Shown one piece after another: positions 41,185 to 58,835 of a stretch of DNA of 64,000 bases. Positions within the stretch are counted from its first letter, which is position 1, and the number at the start of each line of letters is the position of its first letter. Below the pieces are notes generated by a model. It did not search any database, had not been told where the DNA came from, and saw nothing but the letters and a program-made list of their open reading frames with translations. Made by a program: the position numbers and the translations under genes. The stretch lies in contig NZ_LT702999.1 in assembly GCF_900149685.1 (NCBI RefSeq), forward strand, positions 1,674,001-1,738,000, given 5' to 3'. The stretch is from Erythrobacter sp. Alg231-14 (GTDB taxonomy: Bacteria > Pseudomonadota > Alphaproteobacteria > Sphingomonadales > Sphingomonadaceae).

Positions 41185-41243
41185 AGTGTCGGTCGGTGTT
41201 TTCCGGCCAACTCTAAATTGGCCAAGTTTGGTTGGGACATTCA

Positions 41244-42220: not shown

Positions 42221-42338
42221 GTGCCAGTGGTGGGAAAGCTTGACAAGCTTGGTCCCTAAACGCTTTTCAGGCGTTGAAGTTGGGACAAACCCAGAATTTA
42301 TTGCACGCCATCATGGCCAAACAAGAGCAAACATCATC

Positions 42339-42581
42339 ATGACCGAAGCCGAAGTCGACGAACGCATCCGCGGACTTATTGAGCCTTTCAACAAGAAGGG
42401 CGTTACAATCACCAATGAGACAACCTTTGCCAAAGATCTCGAATTTGACAGCCTGACGGTCATGGATTTCGTCGCTGAAATCGAAGACGAATTCGACATA
42501 ATCATCAGTATGAACCAGCAGGCTGAAATCGAAACCTATGGTCTTTTGGTTACGGCAGTGCACAAGCTGCAAGATAGCTGA
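42339..42581 (+). CDS. Acyl carrier protein (sphingolipid-associated)
   Basis: 80 residues. The phosphopantetheine serine is S38 in LEFDSLTVMDFVAEIEDEFDI. The ATG at 42339 is chosen because it starts the domain cleanly; the frame upstream is unconserved. It lies 14 bases before the serine palmitoyltransferase gene. In Caulobacter and Sphingomonas relatives a dedicated ACP next to spt is thought to present the fatty acyl chain. Confidence 0.93.
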   Translation: MTEAEVDERIRGLIEPFNKKGVTITNETTFAKDLEFDSLTVMDFVAEIEDEFDIIISMNQQAEIETYGLLVTAVHKLQDS

Positions 42582-42595
42582 TAGAGACGTTTTCT

Positions 42596-43843
42596 ATGAC
42601 TGATACCGCAATGGCAAAAGACGCACCTCCCGCGACCGAGGCGCAAGATCTCTTTTCAAAATTTGATCCGATTATCCAAACTCGCGAAACGCTGTTGGCT
42701 AGCGGGGTGGAGGACCCATTCAATTTGGTCATGGAAGAAGTCCTCTCGCCGACGCGGGCGATGTGTAATGGGCGCGATACTATTCTGCTTGGCACCTACA
42801 ATTACATGGGGATGACCTTTGACCCCGACGTGCTTGATGCCGGAAAGCAAGCTTTGGATAATTACGGTGCGGGCACCACCGGTAGCCGCGTCCTAAACGG
42901 GACCTATCAAGGCCACCGTGAATGCGAAGACGCGCTCAAAGAGTTTTACGGGATGGACCATGCCATGGTCTTTTCTACGGGTTACCAAGCGAATTTGGGG
43001 ATTATCGCGACGATCGCTGGCAAAGGCGACTATGTTGTTCTTGATATCGATAGCCACGCGTCAATTTACGATGGCTGCGCGATGGGCAATGCGGAAATCG
43101 TCCCGTTCCGTCACAACGATATCGAAGCGATGGAGAAGAGACTTCGCCGAATCCCAGAAGGTGCTGGGAAATTGGTCATTCTAGAAGGCGTTTATTCGAT
43201 GTTGGGCGATGTCGCCCCGCTCAAAGAAATGATCGCGATCGCCAAGAAATATGGCGCTATGGTCCTCGTTGATGAAGCGCACTCCATGGGCTTCATTGGG
43301 GAAAATGGCCGCGGCGTGGCCGAAGAGCAAGGCGTGATGGATGATGTCGATTTCATCATCGGCACATTCTCAAAAAGCGTCGGCACTGTCGGAGGGTTTT
43401 GCGTTTCCAACCACCCCAAGTTTGATATCCTTCGGCTGGTGTGCCGGCCATATGTTTTCACCGCCAGCCTACCGCCGAGCGTTGTCGCGACAGCAGCCAC
43501 ATCGATCCGCAAATTGATGCATGGTTCAAACAAGCGCGCGCACCTTTGGGAAAATTCAAAGCGGCTGCATGCTGGCTTGACCGAAATGGGCTTTGAGCTG
43601 GGAACTAACGAACCGCAAAGCGCGATCGTGGCGGTCATTATGCCGGACCTCGAACGCGGTGCAGGCATGTGGGAGGCCCTCTTGAAAGAAGGCCTTTATG
43701 TCAATCTCGCCCGCCCACCAGCAACACCGGCAAACATGACACTTTTGCGGTGCTCATTGTGCGCCGAGCATTCTTCGGAAGAGGTCGAAACGATCCTCGC
43801 CATGTTTGAACGCGCCGGAAAAGCAGTCGGCATAATTGGTTAA
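42596..43843 (+). CDS. spt: Serine palmitoyltransferase
   Basis: 415-residue alpha-oxoamine synthase that condenses serine with a fatty acyl thioester, the first step of sphingolipid synthesis. PLP residues are visible: K260 in GTFSKSVGTVGGF, DEAHSMG at 226-232, and the ring-stacking His154 in DSHASIYDG. The N-terminus lacks a membrane segment, as in soluble bacterial SPTs, which distinguishes it from KBL or BioF only by overall pattern; the adjacent ACP supports SPT. AGAGACG precedes the ATG. Confidence 0.88.
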   Translation: MTDTAMAKDAPPATEAQDLFSKFDPIIQTRETLLASGVEDPFNLVMEEVLSPTRAMCNGRDTILLGTYNYMGMTFDPDVLDAGKQALDNYGAGTTGSRVLNGTYQGHRECEDALKEFYGMDHAMVFSTGYQANLGIIATIAGKGDYVVLDIDSHASIYDGCAMGNAEIVPFRHNDIEAMEKRLRRIPEGAGKLVILEGVYSMLGDVAPLKEMIAIAKKYGAMVLVDEAHSMGFIGENGRGVAEEQGVMDDVDFIIGTFSKSVGTVGGFCVSNHPKFDILRLVCRPYVFTASLPPSVVATAATSIRKLMHGSNKRAHLWENSKRLHAGLTEMGFELGTNEPQSAIVAVIMPDLERGAGMWEALLKEGLYVNLARPPATPANMTLLRCSLCAEHSSEEVETILAMFERAGKAVGIIG

Positions 43844-44780: not shown

Positions 44781-44806
44781 CTATTGCTTTGAATGGGAGG
44801 GCAGTC

Positions 44807-45292
44807 ATGGCCGCGCGCCCCAATCGCACAAAGAAGAAATCTGAACACAACAATAGGGACGACCTTCGGCTAAACCCACATTGGCGATCAATATTCCTGG
44901 ATCATTTGGGTGAGAGTTCAAATGTCTCAGAATCAGCGCGGAAAGCAGGCGTCAGTTCAAGCAGAGCATATAAGACACGCCGCGACGAGCCCACCTTTGC
45001 CGCCGACTGGTTGGCGGCGCTTTACGAAGGGTATGTTCATTTAGAAATGGAAGTGCTGCGGCGAATGCGCGAGGGTGATTTGCAGACAGACACTGCCGAC
45101 AAATATGATTTTGCAAACGCTATTCGCTTGCTGTCGGCTCACCGTGACAATGCAGTTCGAGCGCAGGCGGCGCAACGAAATGTCAGCGCCGCAGATGTCC
45201 GCGCGTCGATTGATCGTAAGGTGAATGCGATCCGTCAGCATGTTCGGAATGAAAGACTACGAGCAAGCAACCATTCCGGTTCTTCGAATTGA
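44807..45292 (+). CDS. GTA small terminase subunit (gene 1 type)
   Basis: 161 residues from the ATG at 44807, preceded by GGGAGGG. A basic N-terminus (ARPNRTKKK) is followed by a helix-turn-helix, LGESSNVSESARKAGVSSSRAYKTRRDEP, and helical oligomerisation region. GTA TerS proteins have weak sequence-specific DNA binding, fitting random packaging of host DNA. The stop overlaps the large terminase start by 4 bp (TTGA). Confidence 0.8.
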   Translation: MAARPNRTKKKSEHNNRDDLRLNPHWRSIFLDHLGESSNVSESARKAGVSSSRAYKTRRDEPTFAADWLAALYEGYVHLEMEVLRRMREGDLQTDTADKYDFANAIRLLSAHRDNAVRAQAAQRNVSAADVRASIDRKVNAIRQHVRNERLRASNHSGSSN

Positions 45293-46614
45293 CACAACGG
45301 ATCGATTGGCTCGCCCAAGAAGAGGATTGTGTTCAAAATCGGATAGCAGCGGCACTCAATCAAGAGGAACGCAACGAGTTCGATTTCCATTGGGCAATGA
45401 TGGCGCGATCCGCTCAACTGCCACCCAAAGGAAATTGGCGCACTTGGCTGATTCTGGCTGGGCGTGGATTTGGCAAAACTCGCGCAGGGGCGGAATGGGT
45501 CAGGTTGGTTGCTGAAAGCCAAAGCGAGGCGCGCATCGCGCTTGTATCTTCGTCACTCAATGAAGCTCGTGCCGTTATGGTAGAGGGAGAAAGCGGCTTG
45601 TTGGCCTGCTCTCCACCAGAACGGCGTCCAATGTTCGAAGCGTCGCTGCGCCGAGTGCGCTTTCCAAATGGCGCACAAGTGCAGCTATATTCGGCGGCCG
45701 AGCCAGAAAGCTTGCGCGGCCCGCAACACAGTCATGCTTGGTGTGATGAAATTGGAAAGTGGCCCTTGTCGCACAATCGTGCCACTCGGACGTTTGACAA
45801 TCTCTTGATGGGAATGAGGTTGGGCAACGATCCGCGAATGGCCGTCACCACTACGCCGCGCGCGGTGCCATTGGTGCAAAGACTGCTGGACCAAGCCGAA
45901 GATGGCAGCTGCGTGATCACGCGCGGTTCAACCTACGACAACGCCATGAACCTGCCTGAAAGGTTCTTAGAAGCGATTGAAGGTGAATTTGCAGGAAGCC
46001 AATTGGCCCGACAAGAAATAGCGGGTGAGATGCTTCGTGACATCGAAGGCGCTCTTTGGACCCGCGCAATGCTTGAACAGGCAAATGCAGGAACGAAAAC
46101 CGATAGTTTGTGTCGCATCGTTGTGGCCGTTGACCCACCGATCTCTTCGCATGGGGATGAATGCGGCATCATTGTCGCTGGCTTGGGCGACGATGGGGTT
46201 GCCCGAATTCTCGCGGATTGCTCTGTCGCAAAGGCGCAACCAGATCGTTGGGCCAAAACAGTCGCCGACGCCGCACAGCATTGGGAAGCGGATCGTGTCG
46301 TAGCCGAGGCAAACCAAGGCGGCGCAATGGTTGAAAGCGTTTTGCGCGCTGCCGACAATAGATTGCCGATCAGACTGGTTCACGCCAGTCGAGGAAAAGC
46401 GGCGCGGGCCGAACCAGTCGCCGCTCTCTATTCATCGGGGCGGGTCATCCATTGCGGAAGTTTCCCGCAACTCGAAGATCAAATGTGCGGATTGCTTATT
46501 GGCGGCGATTATTCCGGCCCTGGCCGGAGTCCAGATCGCGCAGACGCGCTCGTTTGGGCGTTGACCGAACTCATGCTTGGCACCGCTGCACGGCCAAGCG
46601 TGCGTCACATTTGA
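45289..46614 (+). CDS. GTA large terminase (gene 2 type)
   Basis: 441 residues from a TTG at 45289. Motor ATPase plus RNase H-like nuclease for packaging. Walker A is GRGFGKT (58-64), Walker B/catalytic Glu is HAWCDEIGKW, and the nuclease metal site starts at VVAVDPP and ends in DRADALVWALTEL. The use of TTG within TTGA suggests that translation depends on the preceding gene. Length is typical of GTA terminases. Confidence 0.95.
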   Translation: MTQRIDWLAQEEDCVQNRIAAALNQEERNEFDFHWAMMARSAQLPPKGNWRTWLILAGRGFGKTRAGAEWVRLVAESQSEARIALVSSSLNEARAVMVEGESGLLACSPPERRPMFEASLRRVRFPNGAQVQLYSAAEPESLRGPQHSHAWCDEIGKWPLSHNRATRTFDNLLMGMRLGNDPRMAVTTTPRAVPLVQRLLDQAEDGSCVITRGSTYDNAMNLPERFLEAIEGEFAGSQLARQEIAGEMLRDIEGALWTRAMLEQANAGTKTDSLCRIVVAVDPPISSHGDECGIIVAGLGDDGVARILADCSVAKAQPDRWAKTVADAAQHWEADRVVAEANQGGAMVESVLRAADNRLPIRLVHASRGKAARAEPVAALYSSGRVIHCGSFPQLEDQMCGLLIGGDYSGPGRSPDRADALVWALTELMLGTAARPSVRHI

Positions 46615-46639
46615 CGGATCAAATCAAAAAGGAATTGCA

Positions 46640-47809
46640 ATGGCAATGCTCGACACCCTGCTCGCCGCCTTTAAGGGCGGGGAGGAAAACCGTGTGCCGC
46701 TTGCACAGGGAAACTTTCCCGGGAACACCCATGGATGGATGCCCGCGTTCATGGATAATCCCAGCGATCGCCCTTATCGCTACGAACAGGCGGTGCAGGA
46801 TGGATTTCTCGGAAATCCGATTGCACAGCGCGCCGTCCGAATTGTTTCAGAAGGCGTAGGGCAGGCGCCGATTACCATCAATGATGACCAGCTCGAGGCG
46901 CTTGTCACCGCAACGAGCGCAGGCCAATCTTTGGTCGAAACACTGGCCGCACACATCCTCTTGCACGGCAATGGCTATGTCCAAGTCATCAAGGACGCGA
47001 ACGGCAAACCAATCGAATTGTACGCGCTTCGCCCTGACCGCATGACGGTCATCGCCGGCAATGATGGATGGCCGTACGCGTATGAATACACGGTAGGACG
47101 AGAGCCAATTCGCATCCCGATCAACGACGATGGCGGATGGCCAAACATCATACAGATCAAAACCATGCACCCCCTCGACGATCATCTTGGCGCCAGCGCG
47201 TTAGCGGCCTCTCAACAAGCAGTCGCGATCCACAACGCTGCGTCAGATTGGAACAGGGCTCTACTGGAAAACGCGGCCCGTCCGTCTGGTGCCTTGGTCT
47301 ATGATGGAGGTGATGGCGTCGGTCTTACCCATGAACAATTTGAGCGATTGAAATGCGAACTTGAAACTGCGTTTTCGGGGTCCTTGAACGCTGGACGACC
47401 AATGCTGCTCGATGGCGGATTGAAATGGCAATCGATGGCTATGTCGCCGGCTGACATGGACTTTGCCACTTTGAAAAGTGCAGCCGCACGAGAAATCGCG
47501 TTGGCATTTGGCGTGCCGCCCATGTTGTTGGGGCTGCCTGGCGACAACACCTATTCGAACTATCGGGAGGCCAATCGGGCCCTCTGGCGGCTCACCCTTC
47601 TTCCGCTGTCCGAAAAGTTGTTTGCCGCTTTAGAAGAGGGCCTGTCCACGTGGTTTCCGGATGGTGCCATCACGGTCGATCTGGATCGCATTACAGCGCT
47701 TTCTGAAGATCGCGAACGTCTTTGGAAACAAGTGTCCGATGCTGATTTCCTGAGCCGCACGGAAAAGCGGCAAATGCTGGGCTTTCCAGCGAAGGAGGAC
47801 ATTCAGTGA
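46640..47809 (+). CDS. GTA portal protein (HK97 family, gene 3)
   Basis: 389 residues from the ATG at 46640, preceded by AAAAAGGAA. HK97/SPP1-type portal: NPIAQRAVRIVSEGVGQAP at the start, HGNGYVQVIKD, the ALRPDRMTVIAG segment, LSASALAA-type helix and FGVPPMLLGLPGDNTYSNYREANRALW, a highly typical block. Twelve copies should form the capsid vertex ring. Overlaps the next gene by 4 bp (GTGA). Confidence 0.95.
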   Translation: MAMLDTLLAAFKGGEENRVPLAQGNFPGNTHGWMPAFMDNPSDRPYRYEQAVQDGFLGNPIAQRAVRIVSEGVGQAPITINDDQLEALVTATSAGQSLVETLAAHILLHGNGYVQVIKDANGKPIELYALRPDRMTVIAGNDGWPYAYEYTVGREPIRIPINDDGGWPNIIQIKTMHPLDDHLGASALAASQQAVAIHNAASDWNRALLENAARPSGALVYDGGDGVGLTHEQFERLKCELETAFSGSLNAGRPMLLDGGLKWQSMAMSPADMDFATLKSAAAREIALAFGVPPMLLGLPGDNTYSNYREANRALWRLTLLPLSEKLFAALEEGLSTWFPDGAITVDLDRITALSEDRERLWKQVSDADFLSRTEKRQMLGFPAKEDIQ

Positions 47810-48114
47810 CTCATGAAGAAATGCTCGCCAGTTTGATGATGCAGGCCAATGCGGAGGGCGCTGAATTGGTAACATTGCGCGCCATCGTTGAGGAATCGAG
47901 CGAACTTGCGGCTGAACGTGTGCTTGAGCGGCTCGGCCTAGCCGATGCAGGAGCCGAAGGCGATCTCGATGAGTTGAGAGAGCTGCTTGGGGCATGGCGA
48001 GACGCGAAAGCGAGCGCATGGAAAGCTTTCATGGGCTGGGCCGTGCGCGGTGCTTTGGCTGCGCTTCTTATTGGCATCGCTGTTCGACTTGGCGTTTGGG
48101 ACATTTTGCAATGA
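47806..48114 (+). CDS. DUF6127 protein in GTA gene 3.5 position
   Basis: 102 residues from a GTG at 47806. A helical acidic N-terminus with repeated leucines (ERVLERLGLAD, LDELRELLGAWRDAK) is followed by a single hydrophobic segment near the C-terminus (WAVRGALAALLIGIAVRLGVW). DUF6127 proteins occur in GTA clusters between portal and protease. Function unknown; a membrane-associated assembly role is possible. Confidence 0.8.
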   Translation: MTHEEMLASLMMQANAEGAELVTLRAIVEESSELAAERVLERLGLADAGAEGDLDELRELLGAWRDAKASAWKAFMGWAVRGALAALLIGIAVRLGVWDILQ

Positions 48115-48524
48115 CCGAACTCGCGAACAATATCATCCGCTTCGCTGGCTATGCCGGTTTGTTTGATATTCCCGATGCAGACCGAGACATCATTCGTCGC
48201 GGTGCATTCGCGTCGACCCTTGCCCAACGTTCAGAACCACTGCCTTTATTGTGGCAACACCACCCGGACCAACCAATCGGCACGATAGAAATGGTCGCAG
48301 AAGATGCGCGAGGATTGCGCGTGATCGCGCGAGTGGAAAACGCAAACAGCCGCGCAGCAGCCTTATTGCGCCAGAAAAAGGTGAACGGATTGAGCTTTGG
48401 GTATCGCGCCCGGGTTGCACACCAGCATGAATTTTGGCGCGATTTGCGCGCCGTTGATCTGTTCGAAGTTAGTCTCGTCACTCATCCGCTTCAGCATGGC
48501 GCGCGGGTGCATTTCATCTCCTAA
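48111..48524 (+). CDS. GTA prohead protease (gene 4)
   Basis: 137 residues from the ATG at 48111, overlapping the upstream gene by 4 bp. HK97-type serine protease that matures the capsid. Conserved features: FAGYAGLFDIPDADRDIIRRGAF, the catalytic His region PLLWQHHPDQPIG, the Ser in GLSFGYR and the acidic residue in LFEVSLVTHP. A strong terminator-like hairpin follows before the capsid gene. Confidence 0.92.
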   Translation: MTELANNIIRFAGYAGLFDIPDADRDIIRRGAFASTLAQRSEPLPLLWQHHPDQPIGTIEMVAEDARGLRVIARVENANSRAAALLRQKKVNGLSFGYRARVAHQHEFWRDLRAVDLFEVSLVTHPLQHGARVHFIS

Positions 48525-48547
48525 CTCTCACTCCAACCTACCCGTCA

Positions 48548-48573
48548 GGCCGCCAAAAAGGGGCGGCCTTTTT
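48548..48573 (+). terminator. Terminator-like hairpin between protease and capsid genes
   Basis: A perfect 7-bp stem GGCCGCC / GGCGGCC with a 7-base loop, followed by TTTTT. It is only 29 bases before the capsid start, leaving no room for a promoter after it. Confidence 0.8.
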
Positions 48574-48601
48574 CTTGCCCTACAGAAAGGCCAAATACCC
48601 T

Positions 48602-49795
48602 ATGGATATCACAATCCCCTCGCCAACCGCCGGTACCCAAGCCGCCAACTCAGCGTCCGCTTTGCCCGTGTCGAAGGGCGACCCAATGGAACAAAGTTTT
48701 GATGTGGTTGCCCGCCAAGATCAGGCCGAAGCCGATATCAAAGTGCTCCGCAACGATGTTGATGAAGTGAAAGCACGTTTGGACAAAGTTTCCCGCGCGG
48801 CGTCCCGCCCAGCGATCGGTGGGGTTCCTGCAGCCACTGCCGAGGTTAAAGGTTTCGTAGATGGCTATTTGCGTCGCGGTCGTGAGAACGAAGTCAAATC
48901 GATCAACGGCGGAACTCTATCGGATGGTGGATTCGCAGTTCCACGACAAATTGATGCAATGATCGCGCGGGAATTGTCAGAAATTAGCCCCATCCGTTCA
49001 ATCGCCCAAGTGGTTCAAACCGGCACATCTGGATACCGCAAGCTTGTTGCGACAGGCGGCACAGCATCTGGCTGGGTCAGCGAAACAGCGGCACGCCCCG
49101 AAACCGACACGCCGAACTTTGCTGAGATCGCTCCACCTAGCGGCGACCTCTACGCCAATCCGGCCGCTAGCCAATCAATGTTGGACGATGCGGCCTTTGA
49201 CCTCGAATCTTGGCTTGCCAATGAGATCGCGATCGAATTCGCCCGCGCGGAAGGAACCGCTTTCGTCAACGGCAATGGCACGAACCAACCCGAAGGATTC
49301 TTGCAGGCAGCAAACAGCACCGCCGAAGACGGTGTGCGCGGCTTTGGTCAATTGCAATATATCGGTTCGGGCGACGCCAACGGTTTTGATGGCGAACCTG
49401 ATGCCAAGCTGATCGACCTAATCCATTCACTCAAATCGGGTCACCGCCAGGGGGCCAGTTTCGTCATGAACTCGTCAACACTGGCATCGGTCCGTAAATT
49501 GAAAACTGCAGATGGCGCATTTCTTTGGCAGCCAGGCATGGTTGAAGGCCAACCTAATCGATTGCTCGGTTATCCTGTGATTGAAGCGGAAGACATGCCC
49601 GACGTAGGTGCTGGCGAATTTCCGATTGCTTTCGGTAATTTCCGTCATGGCTATTTGATCGCGGAACACAGTGCCACTCGCGTTTTACGCGATCCGTTCT
49701 CCAACAAGCCGTTTGTCCATTTCTACGCCACGAAACGTGTGGGTGGGCAAGTGCTCGATTCAAACGCAATCAAGCTGCTCAAGATCGAGGCCTGA
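48602..49795 (+). CDS. GTA major capsid protein (HK97 fold, gene 5)
   Basis: 397 residues from the ATG at 48602 (AAAGG 9-14 bases before). The N-terminal 100 residues include a coiled coil (DQAEADIKVLRNDVDEVKARLDKV) that serves as the internal scaffold and is removed by the protease in this family. The shell domain starts near SINGGTLSDGGFAVPRQID and shows FVNGNGTNQPEGFL, VMNSSTLASVRKLKTADGAFLWQPG and LGYPVIEAEDMPDVGAGEFPIAFGNF, all typical of HK97-type capsids. Confidence 0.95.
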   Translation: MDITIPSPTAGTQAANSASALPVSKGDPMEQSFDVVARQDQAEADIKVLRNDVDEVKARLDKVSRAASRPAIGGVPAATAEVKGFVDGYLRRGRENEVKSINGGTLSDGGFAVPRQIDAMIARELSEISPIRSIAQVVQTGTSGYRKLVATGGTASGWVSETAARPETDTPNFAEIAPPSGDLYANPAASQSMLDDAAFDLESWLANEIAIEFARAEGTAFVNGNGTNQPEGFLQAANSTAEDGVRGFGQLQYIGSGDANGFDGEPDAKLIDLIHSLKSGHRQGASFVMNSSTLASVRKLKTADGAFLWQPGMVEGQPNRLLGYPVIEAEDMPDVGAGEFPIAFGNFRHGYLIAEHSATRVLRDPFSNKPFVHFYATKRVGGQVLDSNAIKLLKIEA

Positions 49796-49834
49796 TTAAG
49801 CTTTTGAATGGCCAATCAGGCCGTTCTTGAGTCC

Positions 49835-49929
49835 CCGGCAAGGTTGAGTTCCCCCTTTCTCCTTTGCCGGTACCTCGCACCCGCGCCGCTCCGGGCGGCT
49901 CTCCTGCTCAGCGAAAGCGGCGCGGGTGC
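49835..49929 (+). repeat. Two successive hairpins after the capsid gene
   Basis: Stem 1: CCGGCAAGG (49835-49843) with CCTTTGCCGG (49861-49870), one bulged base. Stem 2: a 14-bp perfect repeat GCACCCGCGCCGCT (49877-49890) and AGCGGCGCGGGTGC (49916-49929), loop 25 bases, followed by CTTGTTTT. Together they fill most of the 166-base gap between capsid and connector genes. They could protect or trim capsid mRNA or partly terminate transcription. Confidence 0.7.
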
Positions 49930-49961
49930 ACCTTGTTTTGACTAGTTTGCAGGAGACCGTG

Positions 49962-50519
49962 ATGCGGCGGACAATCTTAGAGCCAGCCGATGTAAGCGCG
50001 ACCGCGCTGGCCGAACTAAAAGCGTGGCTGGGCATCAGCCGACAAAACGAAGACGAACTCCTCATTGGATTGCTTCGGGCAAGTTTGGATGTATGCGAGG
50101 CCTTCACCGGGCAAGCTCCTCTATCGCAGCTGATCGAAGAGCAAATGCCAACAAGTGCAGGGCGATATGCGATTGCATCACGACCGGTTTCATCGCTCAT
50201 TGTGGCACAGATTGTTGGATTGGATGGTGCGCAAAGCGCATTGAATCCGGACAAATATGAAATCGAATTTCAAGCCATCGGGAATGCCTGTTTCACCTTG
50301 CTACAAAGCGTGGAGGGGCAAGCTGTCGCAATCCGACTGCGTGTGGGTATTGCATCGGACTGGGAGACCCTCCCTGCTGCGATTAAACAGGGATTAATCC
50401 GCCTCGCTGCGTATCATTACCGTGACCGCGATCGCCCCGGCAACGCCAAGAAAGAAGTTTCCGCACCTTCAAGCGTCACCGCCTTGTGGCGGCCTTGGCG
50501 CACGATGCGGTTGCAATGA
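49962..50519 (+). CDS. GTA head-tail connector (gene 6)
   Basis: 185 residues from the ATG at 49962 with AGGAGA five bases upstream. Helical gp6/gp15-like adaptor: LAELKAWLGISRQNEDELLIGLLRASLDVCEAFTGQA is the typical N-terminal helix-rich signature and LPAAIKQGLIRLAAYHYRDRD the C-terminal one. It should form the ring under the portal. Overlaps the next small gene by 4 bp. Confidence 0.9.
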   Translation: MRRTILEPADVSATALAELKAWLGISRQNEDELLIGLLRASLDVCEAFTGQAPLSQLIEEQMPTSAGRYAIASRPVSSLIVAQIVGLDGAQSALNPDKYEIEFQAIGNACFTLLQSVEGQAVAIRLRVGIASDWETLPAAIKQGLIRLAAYHYRDRDRPGNAKKEVSAPSSVTALWRPWRTMRLQ

Positions 50520-50680
50520 TCGTCGCTAAGGCGGCGATCGACCCCCTCATTCGGCGTCTTGCAACGCACGCCGGAACAATAGCTCACAAGAACAGCGGCT
50601 TGATCGCCACGGCCCGCCATTCTGGCGAACCAAATTGGCGCTCCGTTGCGTCTTTGTGGCCCGATCTGAGATGGGACTAA
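50516..50680 (+). CDS. Small GTA-cluster protein of unknown function
   Basis: 54 residues, joined to gene 6 by ATGA and four bases before gene 8. Basic and helical, IDPLIRRLATHAGTIAHKNSG, ending WPDLRWD. It occupies the place of the gene 7 head-tail stopper, which is about twice this size in Rhodobacter, but shows no similarity that I recognise. It may be a degraded or replaced stopper, or a spurious short frame, though its exact overlap argues for translation. Confidence 0.6.
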   Translation: MIVAKAAIDPLIRRLATHAGTIAHKNSGLIATARHSGEPNWRSVASLWPDLRWD

Positions 50681-50684
50681 GACT

Positions 50685-51077
50685 ATGGAAAATTCCTTAC
50701 GCGCCGATCTCATAGATTGGCTCCGCAGCGACCCGAATTTGATCCCGATCAACGCGATTGAAGAAGAAACGCCAATCAGCGCAAGTGCGCCTTGGCTAGG
50801 CATTTCAGCAAGCGCTTCCACGGATTGGGGAACCAAGGATCGGGCAGGTCGCGAAGTTCGGATCGCTTTGGAGTTGGAAAGTCGGACCGATGAGACAGAT
50901 GCCGATAGTCCTCTCATCAATGCGATTGAAAACCGTGTCCTGGCATTGCCGCCGTTTCAATCCGATTTCGAAGTCGCATCGATCCGATTCTTACGAGCCA
51001 GAAGCGAGGAGCGAGACAGCAATCTTCGGGGCGCGCTGCTTGAATTCCGCTTTCGCATTTTTGCCCCTCAACCATAA
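50685..51077 (+). CDS. DUF3168 tail-completion protein (gene 8)
   Basis: 130 residues. DUF3168 family, gp8 of GTAs: LRADLIDWLRSDPNL at the start, VRIALELESRTDETDADSPLINAIENRVLALPPF and the strand IRFLRARSEERDSNLRGALLEFRFRI. Structural studies of the Rhodobacter GTA place this protein at the tail terminator ring. AGACT precedes the ATG, a weak binding site close to the previous stop. Confidence 0.88.
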   Translation: MENSLRADLIDWLRSDPNLIPINAIEEETPISASAPWLGISASASTDWGTKDRAGREVRIALELESRTDETDADSPLINAIENRVLALPPFQSDFEVASIRFLRARSEERDSNLRGALLEFRFRIFAPQP

Positions 51078-51099
51078 AATTTAAGACGGAGTAGAACAT

Positions 51100-51507
51100 A
51101 TGCCAGCGCAAAATGGATCCGCATTCCTACTAAAAATCGGTGACGGAACGGCCAGCCCCTCTTATGAAACCGTAGCCGGATTGAGGACAACACAATTGTC
51201 CATCAATGGTGATCTGGTGGTCGTCACACACAAAGAATCAGGTGGATGGCGTGACCTGCTTTCCGGAGCGGGCACTCGGTCAGTTTCTGTGAGCGCCGCT
51301 GGAATCTTTCTCGGCAGTCAGGCGGAGTCCTCAATCCGTGCCCATGCATTGGCGGGTGTCATCGATGATTATGAATTGTCTTTCGAAGATGGAGAGCGTC
51401 TGCGCGGTCGCTTTCTCGTTCAACGGCTAGACTATTCCGGAGATTTCAACGGGGAGCGCAACTACACGCTCCAACTCGAGAGCTCCGGTCCCGTGACCCC
51501 TGCATGA
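51100..51507 (+). CDS. GTA major tail (tube) protein (gene 9)
   Basis: 135 residues. TP901-1-like tail tube protein: MPAQNGSAFLLKIGDG, VAGLRTTQLSINGDLVVVTHKESGGWRDLL, and DYELSFEDGERLRGRFLVQRLDYSGDFNGERNYTLQLESSGPVT. GGAG precedes the start. It overlaps the chaperone gene by 4 bp. Confidence 0.93.
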   Translation: MPAQNGSAFLLKIGDGTASPSYETVAGLRTTQLSINGDLVVVTHKESGGWRDLLSGAGTRSVSVSAAGIFLGSQAESSIRAHALAGVIDDYELSFEDGERLRGRFLVQRLDYSGDFNGERNYTLQLESSGPVTPA

Positions 51508-51818
51508 GCCGGATCGCTAATAGGTTGAGGGGCGAAGCCAATTTCGAATGCGCAGACTCTAAATTTTGCCTACGGCCGAGTTTTGAGAATTTGGTCAATG
51601 CAGAAGAAGAAATTGGATCGCTTTTCGCCTTAGTAGAACGCGCTTCGCAAGGCGGCATGACCGTTTCTGAAATCACGGCCATTCTTTGGCACTGTATCGA
51701 CCATCACCCACGCCCTGCGCGGGAAATCGTTGGACAGGCGGTGCTGCAGATGGGTTTGGTGGAAGCTATCAAACCAGTTCGGACAATCTTGGCTCAGGTG
51801 CTGCAAGGCCGCGCATGA
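51504..51818 (+). CDS. GTA gp10 family tail chaperone
   Basis: 104 residues. GTA_gp10 family: FCLRPSFENLVNAEEEIGSLFALVERASQGGMTVSEITAILWHCI. In siphophage-like tails a pair of small genes here encodes chaperones that load the tape measure. It overlaps the genes on both sides by 4 bp. Confidence 0.88.
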   Translation: MSRIANRLRGEANFECADSKFCLRPSFENLVNAEEEIGSLFALVERASQGGMTVSEITAILWHCIDHHPRPAREIVGQAVLQMGLVEAIKPVRTILAQVLQGRA

Positions 51819-52036
51819 CACGCGAAAAGGCTGTTGGTCTCTGCGCCGAAACCTCCCTTTGGTGGGGTCTAGCGTCTCAGATTCTTGGTTGGCGACCAGA
51901 CGAATTTTGGCAATCCACCCCCGCCGAGCTGGCCGCAGCACTTCGTCCTCCGGAAAACATACAGAACACCACGGCACCTAGCCGAGATTGCATTGCGCAA
52001 ATGTTGGAGCGAGAAAACAATGAACGACAATCTTGA
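51815..52036 (+). CDS. Second tail assembly chaperone (rcc01693-like)
   Basis: 73 residues from the ATG at 51815. Conserved core WWGLASQILGWRPDEFWQSTPAELAAAL of the phage_TAC_6/rcc01693 family. It is a separate overlapping gene rather than a frameshift product: ATGA couples it to gp10. Its 3' end overlaps the tape-measure start by 17 bases. Confidence 0.87.
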   Translation: MTREKAVGLCAETSLWWGLASQILGWRPDEFWQSTPAELAAALRPPENIQNTTAPSRDCIAQMLERENNERQS

Positions 52037-52592
52037 AGAGCTCGTGATCGAAGTCCGGGCAACAACCGATGGCTTCAATTCTGACCTCGAAGGCATGCGC
52101 AGCGCGCTCGACTCCTCGCTACTTGATGGGTTCGGCAAAGCGGGCTCTGTTCTTGAACGTGGGCTCCTATCTGCCCTTCGCAGAGGTAGCTTGGGATTTG
52201 ATGACCTAAAACGGGTGGCGTTCAATACTCTGGATTCCATTGCTTCTCACGCCATCAACTCTGGTCTGAACTCTGTGTTGGGCGGGCCTGGTTCTGGCTT
52301 TGGCGGCATAATCGGCCAATCGCTCGGCGCGTTGCTTGGATTACCCGGCCGCGCCACCGGCGGGCCAGTCTCACCGGGCAGAGGATTCATTGTCGGAGAA
52401 AACGGCCCGGAGCTTTTTGTCCCGACCAGCGCCGGCAAGATCGCGGCGAACGCAGGCGAGGTCCGTGCGGGCCGAGATGTTCGCGTGGCAATACAACTGG
52501 CTACACCGCGTGGAACTTCTGCACCAACAGCCATGCAACGATCGTCGCGACAAGTTGCAAGCGCTGTCCGCCGCGCCATCCAAGAACGCTGA
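52020..52592 (+). CDS. GTA tail tape-measure-type protein (gene 11)
   Basis: 190 residues from the ATG at 52020. An N-terminal helical part (LVIEVRATTDGFNSDLEGMRSALDSSLLDGFGKAGSVLERGLLSALRRG) is followed by a glycine-rich segment (GGPGSGFGGIIGQSLGALLGLPGRATGGPVSPGRGFIVGENGPELFVP) and a basic tail. The RATGGPVSPGRGFIVGENGPELF motif is common to GTA gp11 and phage minor tail proteins. It is very short for a tape measure, as in other GTAs with short tails. Confidence 0.85.
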   Translation: MNDNLEELVIEVRATTDGFNSDLEGMRSALDSSLLDGFGKAGSVLERGLLSALRRGSLGFDDLKRVAFNTLDSIASHAINSGLNSVLGGPGSGFGGIIGQSLGALLGLPGRATGGPVSPGRGFIVGENGPELFVPTSAGKIAANAGEVRAGRDVRVAIQLATPRGTSAPTAMQRSSRQVASAVRRAIQER

Positions 52593-52609: not shown

Positions 52610-54931
52610 ATGGCATTTTGGCTGGTGAACGATCGCCGCACACAAGAATCGAGCTTTATTCAACGGTTCGACCCACGATTTTGGACCGTGAATTTTCCTC
52701 GCCCTGCAATGGCGTCGGTTATCACAACGGGCGCGGACAGCATGCAAATTGATGTCGAGTTGCAGCATGAGGGTGAACTCGTCGGTCTAATCTGGGATAG
52801 TGTAGATAGCCTCGACCACCCATTGCTCGCCTACGAAACCAGTCGCGATTATTCGAAGACCACATTGAGCTTCCGCTGGCAATCAGAAGGCATCATTCCA
52901 CTGAACGCAGCGAACGGCCCTACACTTACCATCGAAGGAAGAGACGCGGCCGGGACACCAAGCACCTGGTTCGTAAGACTGTGGAATTATGCAAGCGGCA
53001 GCCCAACCGATGCCGAGATTGAGCTGCCGTTCTCAAATCTGGCCAGCGGCTTCACGCTCCCTGGCTCGCCCATCCATGCGGCCGATATTGATCGCATGTT
53101 TATATCCCTTGTCGCGCCTGACTATGTGGCGGGCAGCACGCAACCCCTTTCGCAGCGCTTCAACGGCAAGGTAACGGTTTCGAGAATAACCACCGATGGT
53201 CTGAACGGAATGCTTGAGATCGGCGACGTCCGTTTGCCCGTTCATGGAGAGCGGATCGCGACCGCATATGATGATGGCTATGATCAAACACCGGCCAGGC
53301 TGCTGCGCGGTCTGGTTGGTCTCGGCTATCGCGAGGACATAGTCCACTATGTCGGCATGAGCCATTTCATGCGGCTCACCTACGTTAACGGCGATTTGCT
53401 TGTCGTGCCGAACGGCGAACTATGCCAACCCGCTAGAGAATGGCACGCCAATTTCTTTGCCGCCGCCAATGCCAATGAATTGGAGCTGATTGCTTCCATC
53501 TCATATGAATTATTCGATGCGTTCTGTCCCGACGATTGGAAACAGCGAACCGTAAACGGAGACCAAGCTCTCACTGGATGGATACCCCCATCCACGCTTT
53601 TGTCTCCGGCCAACAGTCACGCCATGGCATGGTTGAGCGCAAGCACGCAGGCTTTTGTTGGTCTCTTAGAAGAGGCCTCTCAGCCTGTTCGCTTCCAAAT
53701 CGGGGAACCGTGGTGGTGGACCACCTCCGAAGGGGAAATCTGTCTTTACGATGACGCAGCCAAAGCGCTCTTTGGCGGTTCTCCGCCAGAAATTCTCGAT
53801 ATGCGTCAACCGCTCAAAGCAACCGAAATTGCGTTGCTCGATCAAGCGGGAGAATTGCTTGCGCAATCCACCGCAGATCTAACCACAGACATTCGCGCCG
53901 CAGCTTCGGGCTCTACTGAGGTGCTTCTTTTGGCGTTCACGCCAACCATTCTTGATCCACAAATGCCCGAACTCTTCAGGGCAAACCTGCCGATTGGATG
54001 GGCAAAGCCCGCCTTCGATCGGCTTCAATTGGAAGATTACGACTGGCTAACCGGGGGCGCAGATGCCTTGCGCCGTTCAGCCTACATTTTTGCCAATGAG
54101 CGATTGCAATATCCAATTGAAGAGCAAGACTATCTGGCAGGATTTGTCCTCGACCCCGCGGATGCCGAAACTTTCTGGGCGCGAATTGATGCCGGTCTTG
54201 ATGAAGCGGCAACACGCGGAATCTCGCGCCGCTATGTGTGGGCGCAACCACAAATCAATCGCGATGGATACACCCGATTACCCCCAACCGGAGAGGACCC
54301 GATGCAAGCTTTTGATGATGTGCTTTACCCTTTCCCCCTCGGCAGGAGCACTGCCGTGGCGCCCGAATTTTCAACCTCAGTGTCGGTTACCGCCTCTGGA
54401 CATGAACGGCGAAACTCCCTTTGGGCCGATGCACGTGTGCACTTTGACGTTGGCCCAGGAATTCGATCAGAATCGGAATTGTCCGAATTGATTGCATTCT
54501 TCCGTGCACGGCGCGGTGCGGCAAAAGGGTTTCGGATCAGCGATCCTTTCGATCATAGCACCAATGGTATGACCGGGACCCCGACAATGTCGGATCAATT
54601 GATTGGTTTGGGCGACGGTCAAAGCGCCGATTTTCAGCTCATCAAATCATACGGATCGTCTGAAGATCCTCAACAGCGATCCATCAGCCGCCCTCGCATC
54701 GAAACGTTGCTTGTGAGCGTTGACGGCAACCTTGTGTTGGACTGGACACTTAGTGAGCAAGGGTTGCTAACGCTTGCTGAGGCTCCCGCCGAAGGAGCAG
54801 AAATTCGCGCTGGTTTCCTCTTTGATGTGCCGGTTCGTTTCGCAGAAGATCGGATCGATATATCGGGAGTAAATTTCGAAGCCGGGGAAGCACCAAGCAT
54901 TCCGCTGATCGAGCTCAAGGAAGAACTGTAA
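52610..54931 (+). CDS. Large GTA distal tail protein: N-terminal extension fused to DUF2460 (gene 12)
   Basis: 773 residues; the Rhodobacter gp12 is only about 210. The C-terminal part (about 565-773) is the DUF2460 distal-tail domain: RRNSLWADARVHFDVGPGI, LIAFFRARRGAAKGFRISDPFDH, FQLIKSYG and VPVRFAEDRIDISGVNFEAGEAPSIPLIE. The N-terminal 560 residues begin with a beta-rich region (about 1-180) and continue as an alpha/beta region containing FQIGEPWWW and YVWAQPQINRDGYTR, which resembles a TIM-barrel, glycosidase-like fold by eye. The upstream GGGGGAAC is a good binding site. It abuts gene 13 with a one-base overlap. Confidence 0.85.
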   Translation: MAFWLVNDRRTQESSFIQRFDPRFWTVNFPRPAMASVITTGADSMQIDVELQHEGELVGLIWDSVDSLDHPLLAYETSRDYSKTTLSFRWQSEGIIPLNAANGPTLTIEGRDAAGTPSTWFVRLWNYASGSPTDAEIELPFSNLASGFTLPGSPIHAADIDRMFISLVAPDYVAGSTQPLSQRFNGKVTVSRITTDGLNGMLEIGDVRLPVHGERIATAYDDGYDQTPARLLRGLVGLGYREDIVHYVGMSHFMRLTYVNGDLLVVPNGELCQPAREWHANFFAAANANELELIASISYELFDAFCPDDWKQRTVNGDQALTGWIPPSTLLSPANSHAMAWLSASTQAFVGLLEEASQPVRFQIGEPWWWTTSEGEICLYDDAAKALFGGSPPEILDMRQPLKATEIALLDQAGELLAQSTADLTTDIRAAASGSTEVLLLAFTPTILDPQMPELFRANLPIGWAKPAFDRLQLEDYDWLTGGADALRRSAYIFANERLQYPIEEQDYLAGFVLDPADAETFWARIDAGLDEAATRGISRRYVWAQPQINRDGYTRLPPTGEDPMQAFDDVLYPFPLGRSTAVAPEFSTSVSVTASGHERRNSLWADARVHFDVGPGIRSESELSELIAFFRARRGAAKGFRISDPFDHSTNGMTGTPTMSDQLIGLGDGQSADFQLIKSYGSSEDPQQRSISRPRIETLLVSVDGNLVLDWTLSEQGLLTLAEAPAEGAEIRAGFLFDVPVRFAEDRIDISGVNFEAGEAPSIPLIELKEEL

Positions 54932-55746
54932 TGCGGGTCTTCTTTGATCGAGAGCTCGATGCGACAGCGACGTTCTGGCGCATATTTCGTCAGGATGGGA
55001 TCGCCCTTGGCTTTACCAGCCATGATCGCGATCTTGTCTTCGCCGGACTTAGACATCGAGCAGCACCGGGCATGGTACCTGCCGCCATCCGCATGACATC
55101 CGATCTATCCGAAGACAGTGCCGGAGTGGATGGTGCGCTCAGCCATGATTCCATCAAAGGCTCTGAACTCTCAGCCGGTCTATTTGATCGGGCTGCTATT
55201 GAAATTGGCATCGTCGACTGGGAAACCTTAGAACATCATACAATCTACTCCGGCGCACTCGGCAGAATTGAAGATGATAGTCGAGGATTTTCAGCAGAAT
55301 TGAAATCAGCAAAACAAGTGCTGGAGCAGGACATAGTGCCTAGGACGAGCCCGACATGTCGAGCGTTTTTTTGTGGCCCCGGTTGCGGCTTGTCAGCCAA
55401 TAAGTTTACCGATCGTGTTGCCCTAACCGCACTGGATCTCGACTTAAACCGAGTGCAACTTAACAATGTAGCAAGTGCCAACCACGTTGACGGAAAACTG
55501 CGTTTTCTGAACGGACCACAAACCGGCAAGCCCTTTGGCATCCTGAGTGTCGACGCCAATTGGCTTACGTTGGACAGACCAATCGACGCCAGCGTACCGA
55601 TCGGGACTCCGGCCGAATTAATTGAAGGTTGCGATCACACCTTAACAACGTGCGCCTCTCGATTTAGCAATGCGGTCAATTTTCGAGGGGAACCATTTCT
55701 ACCCGGCAACGACCTCTTGGCTCGCTACGGCCAGAGCTCGGGTTGA
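54931..55746 (+). CDS. GTA hub protein, DUF2163 (gene 13)
   Basis: 271 residues. DUF2163/BR0599 family hub: FTSHDRDLVFAGLRHRA, KGSELSAGLFDRAAIEIGIVDW and the C-terminal CDHTLTTCASRFSNAVNFRGEPFLPG. Five cysteines (143, 148, 152, 234, 241) sit at positions expected for the iron-sulfur cluster reported in the Rhodobacter GTA hub. Start codon ATG shares its A with the stop of gene 12. Confidence 0.92.
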   Translation: MRVFFDRELDATATFWRIFRQDGIALGFTSHDRDLVFAGLRHRAAPGMVPAAIRMTSDLSEDSAGVDGALSHDSIKGSELSAGLFDRAAIEIGIVDWETLEHHTIYSGALGRIEDDSRGFSAELKSAKQVLEQDIVPRTSPTCRAFFCGPGCGLSANKFTDRVALTALDLDLNRVQLNNVASANHVDGKLRFLNGPQTGKPFGILSVDANWLTLDRPIDASVPIGTPAELIEGCDHTLTTCASRFSNAVNFRGEPFLPGNDLLARYGQSSG

Positions 55747-56156
55747 ATGCGCGTATGAATGTGGGCGCACAATTTGCTGACGCGGCGTCTCAGTTCCTCG
55801 GTACGAAATTCAGATTGCATGGCCGCGATCCTTCATACGGCCTCGATTGTGTCGGACTAGTATGCGTAAGTCTCCAGACTATCGGTCGTGAATATCATGC
55901 TCCCGAAGGATATAGTCTTCGCAATACGCGGCCTTTGGCTTGGTCCGATTTCGCGCACAAATCTGGTTTCATCGATGTCACCGACGGGGTTCTGCCGGGC
56001 GATGTCATGATGCTTCGGCCAGGCCCTGCTCAACAGCATTTGGTCATCTTCGAGAACGAACGATCCTGCATCCATGCGCATGCCGGGCTCAAACGTGTTG
56101 TCCGCGAACCAATTGCAATTCCGCGAGCATGTTTAGCCCATTGGCGCTTAACATAA
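55743..56156 (+). CDS. GTA NlpC/P60 cell-wall peptidase (gene 14)
   Basis: 137 residues from a TTG at 55743 (TTGA overlap), or ATG at 55755. NlpC/P60 fold: catalytic Cys36 in YGLDCVGLV, His100 in QQHLVIF and His112/114 in CIHAHAGLKR. It would cleave peptidoglycan during DNA entry. The TTG start parallels that of the large terminase. Confidence 0.92.
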   Translation: MNARMNVGAQFADAASQFLGTKFRLHGRDPSYGLDCVGLVCVSLQTIGREYHAPEGYSLRNTRPLAWSDFAHKSGFIDVTDGVLPGDVMMLRPGPAQQHLVIFENERSCIHAHAGLKRVVREPIAIPRACLAHWRLT

Positions 56157-56176
56157 TTTCTTAAGAGGAGAGCGCA

Positions 56177-58357
56177 GTGGCGACTCTGATCCTTACCGCC
56201 GTGGGCACCGCCATCGGTGGCCCAATCGGTGGCGCGCTTGGCGCATTCATTGGGCAACAGGCCGATTCCGCGATCTTTGGGGGCGGCAACCGCGAAGGAC
56301 CCCGTTTACGCGAATTGTCAGTCACCACTTCAAGCTATGGTCAGCCATTACCAAGGCATTTCGGCCGGATGCGGGTGGCAGGAACCGTGATCTGGTCGAC
56401 CGAGCTGGTCGAAACACGGTCAAAGAGCGGAGGAGGCAAAGGCAAACCTTCTACAACTACCTATTCTTATTCAGCTTCCTTTGCCGTGGCATTATCGAGC
56501 ACCCCTATCGACAGGATCGGCAGAATTTGGGCCGATGGAAACTTGCTTCGGGGGGCCAGCGGCGACCTAAAGGTCGATGGTATAATGCGGACTTATCTTG
56601 GAACCGGCGACAACTTGGTTGATCCTGTCATCGCCGCCGATCGAGGCGCCAACGCCCCGGGATTTCGAGACTGTGCTTATCTGGTTTTCGAAGACCTTCA
56701 ATTGGGCGATTTCGGAAACCGCATCCCTGCTCTTACATTCGAGGTGTTTGCTGCCGACGATTCTTCGGTGTCTCTCGGACAGCTCATCCCGCAAACGGCC
56801 AGTGTTTCCGGCGACGTGACGTTACAAAACGCCCGCGGATTTTCAGATGAGGGCGGTGCATTGGGTTCGTCTCTCGCAGCAATCGACCGCGTTTTTCCAA
56901 TTACCTGCGTCACAACCGCTAATGGTTTGAGCTTTGCGGCTTCCAATACGCTGCCGTCTGATGTCGCAGTCTTGCCAGCGCAATTGTCTGACAAAGACAG
57001 CGGAACCGCAGACGAACGTCACAAACGTCGCGGAGACATTCTCGACAAGGAACCGCTGGCGGTGCGTTACTACGATGAGGATCGTGACTATCAGCCCGGA
57101 GTTCAGAGGGCATTGGGCCTTCGCCCAGAAGGAAGAGAGGCAATTGTCGATTTGCCCGCTGCTATGACGGCCGAAGGCGCCCGACAATTGGCGAACTCAA
57201 ACGCCAACAGGGCGCGTTGGAACGATGAACAGATCATCTGGCGCATTGGCGAACTTGATCCCAACATCGGTCCCGGAAGTGTCGTTCGAATGCCTAACAC
57301 CAATGGGTTTTGGCTAATTAAAAGCTGGGAGTGGTTTGATCGCGGAATTGAGCTCAGCCTTGAACGTTTAGCGCCGCAACTGGGAGCTGAGATTCCCAGC
57401 GATGCCGGATCAAGCAATGTCCCCTTGGACCTTACGGCACCCCAAACGCTCTTAACCGCAGTCGAGGTGCCTCCAGATAGCGCGAGCGATACGTCGACCC
57501 CGCTTCTATTTGCTGCGACGTCCGCTAGCAGCATTGGGTGGCGCGGCGCTGCTCTCTTTGTTGAACAAGGGAATACTCTTAACGAAATCGGATTGACCGG
57601 CAGTGACCGATCGGTCTTCGGAACGCTCGCGACCCCACTGCCTGGCTCGGCTTGCACACTGTTTGAACCCGAATCGGCAGTTGAGATTCAACTTCCTGCA
57701 GCCGATTTGTCTTTTGCAAGCAGTGATATGACAGGGCTCGCCATGGGCGAGAACAGGCTCCTAGTTGCCGATGAAGTGATCCAATTCTTGCACGCGGAAA
57801 TGGTGTCCGGCGGGTATTGGCGCTTGAGCGGATTGCTACGTGGAAGGGCCGGCACTGAGTTCGCCGCCTTCGACGGCCACGAAGCAGGTGCCACGACGGT
57901 GCTCCTAGATGACCGACTAACGATCCTTGACCCGTCCTTGGTGCCATCCACATTAGCAACAAGAATAGCGGCGATTGGCCGTGGTGACGAAGACCCTGTG
58001 TTTGCCGGTCTACAAAACGTTGGGTTGTCCTTGCGACCCCCAAGTCCCGTTCATTCTCAGACTATTCTGCATTCCAACAACGAATTGGAACTGTGCTGGA
58101 CCCGACGAGCTCGGGGCCAATGGAACTGGACCCAGGCGACCGAAGTGCCGTTGATTGAAGAAAGTGAAAACTACACGGTTAGCTTCGGGCCTCCCGATGC
58201 ACCGCATGTTTCATGGGTTGTGACAGAGCCGCGCTTTAGTCTGTCTGACGCGGAACAATCTGGCTTGGTGGCTCAATATGGGCATGGGCCGATATGGGCG
58301 CGTCAGTTGGGCACATTTGGACAATCCAATCCTCTCTATCTCACTGCAATCAACTAA
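56177..58357 (+). CDS. GTA baseplate/fibre protein lacking the TIM-barrel block (gene 15)
   Basis: 726 residues from a GTG at 56177 with AAGAGGAGAG upstream. It starts with the gp15 glycine-rich membrane-like helix (IGGPIGGALGAFIGQQADSAIF) and REGPRLRELSVTTSSYGQPLPRHFGRMRVAGTVIW, and has YVFE-type AYLVFEDLQLGDFGNRIPALTFEVF. In the Rhodobacter protein (about 1,300 residues) a GTA_TIM barrel follows; here the sequence goes directly to a PITC..TANGLSFAA block and the phage-tail-3 region VRYYDEDRDYQPGVQ. The protein is thus about half-length and apparently lacks the barrel. Confidence 0.88.
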   Translation: MATLILTAVGTAIGGPIGGALGAFIGQQADSAIFGGGNREGPRLRELSVTTSSYGQPLPRHFGRMRVAGTVIWSTELVETRSKSGGGKGKPSTTTYSYSASFAVALSSTPIDRIGRIWADGNLLRGASGDLKVDGIMRTYLGTGDNLVDPVIAADRGANAPGFRDCAYLVFEDLQLGDFGNRIPALTFEVFAADDSSVSLGQLIPQTASVSGDVTLQNARGFSDEGGALGSSLAAIDRVFPITCVTTANGLSFAASNTLPSDVAVLPAQLSDKDSGTADERHKRRGDILDKEPLAVRYYDEDRDYQPGVQRALGLRPEGREAIVDLPAAMTAEGARQLANSNANRARWNDEQIIWRIGELDPNIGPGSVVRMPNTNGFWLIKSWEWFDRGIELSLERLAPQLGAEIPSDAGSSNVPLDLTAPQTLLTAVEVPPDSASDTSTPLLFAATSASSIGWRGAALFVEQGNTLNEIGLTGSDRSVFGTLATPLPGSACTLFEPESAVEIQLPAADLSFASSDMTGLAMGENRLLVADEVIQFLHAEMVSGGYWRLSGLLRGRAGTEFAAFDGHEAGATTVLLDDRLTILDPSLVPSTLATRIAAIGRGDEDPVFAGLQNVGLSLRPPSPVHSQTILHSNNELELCWTRRARGQWNWTQATEVPLIEESENYTVSFGPPDAPHVSWVVTEPRFSLSDAEQSGLVAQYGHGPIWARQLGTFGQSNPLYLTAIN

Positions 58358-58373
58358 CCTCGGGAGAGCCTGC

Positions 58374-58835
58374 ATGGCCACGCCAGTGACATTTCCGTCC
58401 TCTACTCCAAAATTCTCGCTGCCGTTGCTTTTCGCAGGACAAGCGCAAAAGGAGTTTTTTCTAAATCAGTCATTCTCTTTGGTGGATGCTCTTCTCCAAA
58501 TTGCGGTTGAGCAGACATCAACATCTCCGCCTACTGACAGTTCGGACGGGCTTTGCTATCTAGTAAAAGCCCCTGCTGAAGACGCATGGGCCGGTCATGA
58601 AGATGAGATTGCAGTCCGCTTGGGCGGCGGGTGGCAGTTTGTGGCTCCGCAACAAGGAATGACGATATATGACCGCCAAGATGGCGCGCTTTCGCATTTC
58701 GATACCGGTTGGCTAAAAGCCGTCGAACCCAACTTACCAACCACCGGAGCAACCATTGATACTGAGGCGCGACTCATGCTGTCCGAACTAGTCGAGGCGC
58801 TCCGAACTCTTGGTATTTTTGCGAATCTAGAGTGA
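58374..58835 (+). CDS. DUF2793 family protein at the end of the GTA cluster
   Basis: 153 residues from the ATG at 58374 with GGGAGAG 7-13 bases upstream. DUF2793 signature: PKFSLPLLFAGQAQKEFFLNQSFSLVDALLQ, CYLVKAPAEDAWAGHEDEIAVRLGGGWQFVAPQQGMTIYDRQD. The C-terminal 25 residues form a predicted helix. Such proteins occur as minor structural or tail-tip components next to GTA and phage tail genes. It is not part of the minimal Rhodobacter set. Confidence 0.82.
   Translation: MATPVTFPSSTPKFSLPLLFAGQAQKEFFLNQSFSLVDALLQIAVEQTSTSPPTDSSDGLCYLVKAPAEDAWAGHEDEIAVRLGGGWQFVAPQQGMTIYDRQDGALSHFDTGWLKAVEPNLPTTGATIDTEARLMLSELVEALRTLGIFANLE

Follow-up and report, generated by a model that had tools for sequence, protein, structure and literature searches.

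A phage-type TIM-barrel module on the distal tail protein of Sphingomonadales gene transfer agents with a short megatron

Introduction

In the gene transfer agent (GTA) of Rhodobacter capsulatus (RcGTA), a TIM barrel lies inside the megatron, the product of g15 (Rcc01698), as part of a peripheral domain spanning residues 230-744, whereas the distal tail protein encoded by g12 (Rcc01695) has only 210 aa (PMC7296036). The window considered here, a stretch of 64,000 nucleotides from Erythrobacter sp. Alg231-14, holds a GTA cluster in which this arrangement is altered: the slot for the barrel in gene 15 is empty, and gene 12 carries a barrel module of its own. The locus thus raises the question of whether the megatron barrel was moved to the distal tail ring, as proposed in a preliminary description of this DNA, or was replaced by a module from elsewhere, and what such a barrel might do at the tail end. 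Differences in the length of GTA genes have been noted before, as a point of method only (Kogay 2020; PMC7360931), and Pfam models for NCTSP_N and TIM-barrel_NCTSP already exist; no published account of the domain exchange was found in the literature searched.

Domain structure of gene 12

Gene 12 (52610-54931; this and all other features of the cluster lie on the forward strand) is an uninterrupted open reading frame of 773 aa, in which an NCTSP_N domain and a TIM barrel are fused to a DUF2460 distal tail protein, as judged from the reading frame, Pfam and AlphaFold2. The beta-rich NCTSP_N domain occupies residues 17-205 (52658-53224; PF23844, E 2.5e-88, 294.7 bits) and is followed by TIM-barrel_NCTSP at residues 210-554 (53237-54271; PF23845, E 1.6e-160, 534.3 bits), both scores far exceeding the curated cut-offs of 27 bits. 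A linker of residues 556-567 (54275-54310), modelled with low confidence (pLDDT <50 at 561-567), leads to the DUF2460 ring domain, which is confined to the C-terminus (residues 569-770, 54314-54919; PF09343, E 1.2e-69), where the preliminary description had placed it, in the last ~210 residues. Searches against PDB sequences divide the protein in the same way. The C-terminal part matches Rcc01695 of RcGTA (6tba; phmmer, E 5.9e-40), the barrel matches gp64 of coliphage N4 (E 1.3e-45), and residues 5-91 match N4 gp65 (phmmer); a profile of 60 relatives of gene 12 matches gp65 over positions 6-255 and gp64 over positions 267-557. Among named organisms, those with the closest relatives of gene 12 are Erythrobacter species (79-84% identity).

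The AlphaFold2 model of gene 12, computed on an alignment of 60 sequences with 27-79% identity to it, reached a pLDDT of 89.3 and a pTM of 0.82 (a single-sequence model reached a pLDDT of only 33). It contains a (β/α)8 barrel, with pLDDT mostly >90, whose eight strands run from residues 215-219 to residues 540-544. In Foldseek searches of the PDB, the best match of the barrel was N4 gp64 (9yf5/9lc0; rmsd 2.5 over ~300 columns, E 6e-24), followed by GH31 alpha-glucosidases, PgaB and GH35 galactosidases, and among predicted viral proteins the barrel matched tail proteins of Goslar, MJG and IMEAB3. Megatron chains of RcGTA and phage R4C were absent from the 50 best PDB fold matches of gene 12. 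Because the best non-phage matches share only ~10% identity, they indicate the fold and not the substrate. The proposal that the distal tail protein bears a glycosidase-like TIM barrel is thus borne out by Pfam, AlphaFold2 and Foldseek, with a confidently predicted barrel in the N-terminal part, and the family that had been suggested for it, the TIM barrel of non-contractile tail sheaths, proved to be the right one (PF23844 and PF23845).

Gene 15 and the remainder of the cluster

Gene 15 (56177-58357) encodes a short megatron of 726 aa in an uninterrupted reading frame. Its N-terminal block, residues 1-212, ends with FGNRIPALTFEVF and is abutted directly by the Phage-tail_3 block from residue 216, with which the central-plus-C-terminal block (residues 216-725) begins. 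The whole GTA_TIM 'peripheral' insert of ~555 aa is absent, leaving an empty insertion slot at residues 212-216 (56810-56824), where Rc-type megatrons hold 513-741 aa. Profile searches found no match to GTA_TIM (PF13547) anywhere in the genome, and the match of gene 15 to NF048004 scores 367 bits against a cut-off of 800. Hence the earlier reading of a 726-residue protein that passes straight from the FGNRIPALTFEVF block to the next domain and lacks a TIM barrel was correct.

The cluster extends from ~44.8 to ~58.8 kb. The genes for terminase, portal, protease, capsid, adaptor, tail tube and tape measure (44789-52592; assigned by gene-by-gene comparison), the last of them short (235 aa), precede gene 12; the hub protein of gene 13 (54931-55746; Phage_phiJL001_Gp84_N and Phage_BR0599 in Pfam) and the NlpC/P60 peptidase of gene 14 (55743-56156; Pfam) lie between genes 12 and 15. 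All genes from terminase to megatron are colinear with those of 12 Rc-type clusters. The Erythrobacter cluster therefore shares with RcGTA the gene order, the DUF2460 ring protein, the hub, the peptidase and the N-terminal, central and C-terminal blocks of the megatron, and differs from it in the empty megatron slot and in the unrelated barrel module on gene 12.

Distribution of the two barrel types

Profile searches detected NCTSP-TIM in 72 of 151 Sphingomonadales genomes and GTA_TIM in none of them, the same search being positive in the control and in other orders. In a sample of the class (192 genomes), NCTSP-TIM occurred in 3 genomes, GTA_TIM in 21 and both in none, and in a sample of the phylum nearly all NCTSP-TIM matches fell within Sphingomonadales. 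The fused gene 12 is present in named species of Erythrobacter, Qipengyuania, Novosphingobium, Citromicrobium, Croceicoccus and others. When gene lengths were compared across Sphingomonadales GTAs, a check that the preliminary description had itself put forward, the combination of a long gene 12 with a short gene 15 recurred order-wide, which argues that the architecture is not due to chance. In contrast, the 12 Rc-type clusters, read with all genes in view, have a gene 12 of 204-219 aa and a gene 15 of at least 1205 aa, in which GTA_TIM lies within an insert of 513-741 aa at the very junction that is empty in Erythrobacter. The barrel exchange is characteristic of Sphingomonadales GTAs and not peculiar to Erythrobacter sp. 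Alg231-14. The fused gene 12 is also found on many 'viral' contigs of 13-15 kb in IMG/VR, which probably represent GTA clusters of Sphingomonadales.

An either/or rule emerges from all loci in which both halves of gene 15 are in view. Where the module is on gene 12 (166 loci, some redundant), the slot in gene 15 measures 3-12 aa, and where it is on gene 13 (10 loci), the slot measures 11-13 aa. Where GTA_TIM fills the slot (22 rows from 13 distinct genomes, genes 12 and 13 being visible in 12 of them), the module is missing, and it is likewise missing from three prophage loci with another insert in gene 15. In two of these three, the insert of ~395 aa is without a Pfam match and has a propeller-like look; it fills the GTA_TIM slot of megatrons of 1167-1178 aa, and gene 13 is enlarged to ~540 aa. 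Among the loci with both parts in view, the rule is without exception: every locus that bears the module, on gene 12 or on gene 13, has an empty slot, and no locus whose slot is filled bears it.

Eight genomes with a short gene 15 and no module were considered as apparent exceptions and set aside, their clusters having large internal deletions or truncations; in one, a remnant of gene 12 is fused to gene 13. Gene 15 is largely intact in these genomes despite deletions that join, for example, the terminase gene to gene 13 or 14, and it seems to outlast the other genes of the cluster.

Origin of the gene 12 module

The module of gene 12 belongs, by sequence and by fold, to the family of N4 gp65/gp64 (Schitoviridae), with NCTSP_N corresponding to gp65 and the barrel to gp64. 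N4 splits the barrel over two proteins, which are wrapped around a podovirus tail, gp65 having a long C-terminus, and N4-like phages show the break in the barrel profile at around position 51-60; the Erythrobacter module, in contrast, is a single chain fused to a distal tail protein of siphovirus type. Gp142 of phi92 (Justusliebigvirus) and its relatives also combine NCTSP_N with a TIM barrel, at 32% identity over 96% of the module, but as a separate gene of a contractile-tailed phage and without DUF2460; gp142 has been listed as a putative glycosidase (PMC5380687). The module of gene 12 also occurs in alphaproteobacterial prophages and phages whose gene 15 is just as short; there it sits on the N-terminus of the gene 13 hub, while gene 12 is a stand-alone gene of ~210 aa.

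Comparison by hhalign of the NCTSP module with the GTA_TIM insert gave a probability of <1% for the whole module, for its N-terminal part and for the barrel, against 100% in a positive control in which the two halves of the NCTSP barrel family were compared with each other. Because the two modules show no homology at the profile level, the barrel was replaced by a module of a different phage-tail family and not moved, unless their divergence exceeds the reach of profiles. The proposal of a moved barrel block is therefore upheld as to where the barrel is found, on gene 12 and not in gene 15, and contradicted as to the move. Descent of the gene 12 module from the gene 15 insert by transposition within the cluster might be argued from the general plan of both modules, a domain of ~200 aa followed by a TIM barrel, ~555-560 aa in total, and from the fact that the two never co-occur; set against the hhalign values and the clear homologues of the module in the unrelated phages N4 and phi92, such a descent is very improbable. 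Nor is there much chance that the cluster is an ordinary prophage and its architecture simply that of the phage's tail. A short gene 15 does accompany the module in some prophages and phages, but there the module is on gene 13, and in the two such loci for which the upstream part was also read, the heads are divergent or the tape measure is long. The Erythrobacter cluster, in contrast, is colinear with Rc-type GTAs down to its short tape measure gene, its type forms one lineage through the order that recurs as contigs of 13-15 kb, and in published GTA-Hunter results Sphingomonadales clusters of this kind are classed as GTAs (PMC6821227).

In a tree of the module, the sequences from GTAs group in a single clade (96/91), separate from the phage modules fused to gene 13 (100/99), which fits a single acquisition in the Sphingomonadales GTA line. 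Gene trees group the DUF2460 domain of Sphingomonadales with module-bearing prophages (100/97) and not with Rc-type GTAs; because these trees are unrooted and have long branches, they do not carry a claim that the whole baseplate came from phages. The g8 and g12-g15 genes of Sphingomonadales have been reported to be unusually distant from those of other orders (PMC11409702). Replacement of the megatron barrel would likely have taken place before the radiation of Sphingomonadales, when a phage tail module took over the glycan-facing part of the baseplate, to be inherited thereafter with the GTA cluster.

Candidate active site and role of the barrel

In the barrel, D221, R230, E300, Q363, G365, E366, P367, W368-W370, D381, E475 and Y477 are invariant in 60 of 60 sequences, and the carboxylates D221, E300, E366 and E475 lie at the C-terminal ends of strands 1, 3, 4 and 6, respectively. 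The motif FQIGEPWWW (residues 362-370; 53693-53719), which had been singled out earlier as possibly belonging to a receptor-specific, glycosidase-like part, is located by alignment and model at the C-terminal end of strand 4 (residues 360-365); its glutamate, E366, directly follows the strand. E475 (codon at 54032-54034), within QLEDYDW, is similarly placed at the end of strand 6 (residues 471-475). In the model, E366 is the first and E475 the second candidate for a catalytic acid. GH31 enzymes have their two catalytic acids on strands 4 and 6, and the GH31-like placement of E366 and E475 suggests that a glycosidase site has been retained. The conserved acid pair could also bind a glycan without cleaving it. 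Because dN of the module is far below dS, gene 12's module has evidently been kept by selection, which can be stated only as 'strong purifying selection', since dS is saturated between species.

In RcGTA, six copies of the distal tail protein and three of the megatron are present, and the N-terminus of the distal tail protein meets the hub and the megatron (PMC7296036). The six-fold N4 sheath of gp64 and gp65 is able to swing away from the tube (PMC12633501). In the proposed model, gene 12 would form the hexameric distal tail ring through DUF2460, each subunit bearing NCTSP_N and the glycosidase-like barrel on a flexible linker. By analogy with the N4 sheath and the RcGTA ring, the six arms would encircle the tail end as a collar or skirt at the junction of ring and hub, the place at which the N-terminal extension of gene 12 would emerge from the ring. 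The N-terminus of the gene 13 hub, whose attachment domain would bind the ring, and the megatron would be at this same junction, so that all three sites of barrel attachment would be neighbours, with six barrels per particle if the barrel is on gene 12 and three otherwise. The barrels would bind, and probably hydrolyse, a glycan of the cell surface or capsule as the particle approaches and before DNA is delivered, which is the job presumed for the three megatron barrels of RcGTA. For the predicted Erythrobacter particle, stoichiometry and position are carried over from RcGTA and N4.

The junction position, together with a sheath in N4 that is six-fold and able to swing out, favours such a six-armed collar, and it is probable that an N4-type module on gene 12 has taken the place of the Rhodobacter-type megatron barrel in binding, and probably cleaving, glycans. 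A purely structural or receptor-binding sheath element, with a catalytically dead barrel whose acids hold the structure or bind sugar, is a serious competitor whose chances fall somewhat short of even. The description of N4 gp64/gp65 is that of a non-contractile sheath in which gp65 binds the receptor, and not of an enzyme (PMC12633501), the barrel of N4 is even split over two chains, and the function of the analogous TIM-barrel domain of RcGTA is stated as unknown (PMC13420450). Against a dead barrel speak the conservation of E366, E475 and the whole of GEPWWW across GTAs, prophages and phi92-like phages, and the position of the two acids on the strands that bear the catalytic acids of GH31, a family among the top fold matches.

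Implications of the exchange

A natural swap to an unrelated barrel, order-wide and at the same junction, means that a barrel is needed there and hints at a shared task at the cell surface; it also provides a pair of candidate active-site residues that can be tested. The swap suggests in addition that GTAs, despite being passed on in the manner of host genes, took parts for host contact from phages, which bears on the cells that receive the DNA. On the cell surface of Sphingomonadales, glycosphingolipid replaces LPS. As a more speculative and on balance unlikely generalization, in alphaproteobacterial GTAs and related phages the ring at the tail end may offer one glycan-facing place with at least four mutually exclusive fillings (GTA_TIM in the megatron, the N4-type barrel on gene 12, the same on gene 13, and the propeller-like megatron insert of ~395 aa); the surface of Sphingomonadales would then need another glycan enzyme, and the module would set which cells the GTA serves.

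Additional components at the tail end and flanking genes

A biofilm-degrading spike of Rhodobacterales GTAs, TspA, docks on the distal tail and the megatron peripheral domains and is reported to be absent outside Rhodobacterales (PMC13420450). In the Erythrobacter cluster, gene 16 (58278-58835; PF10983, E 3.6e-22) encodes a fibre-like DUF2793 protein; it overlaps the end of gene 15 and may represent a tail fibre encoded within the main cluster. It matches chain S of the baseplate-tail structure of roseophage R4C (8gtc), which is recorded as 'Ribonuclease III', probably through a naming error. Six N4-like contigs carry a gp13-like GTA hub gene beside the sheath genes, which is unexpected for short-tailed phages. 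Directly upstream of the GTA cluster, positions 41232-43843 encode a response regulator, an acyl carrier protein and a serine palmitoyltransferase (sphingolipid synthesis); of 14 further Sphingomonadales loci that were compared, 4 share this neighbourhood.
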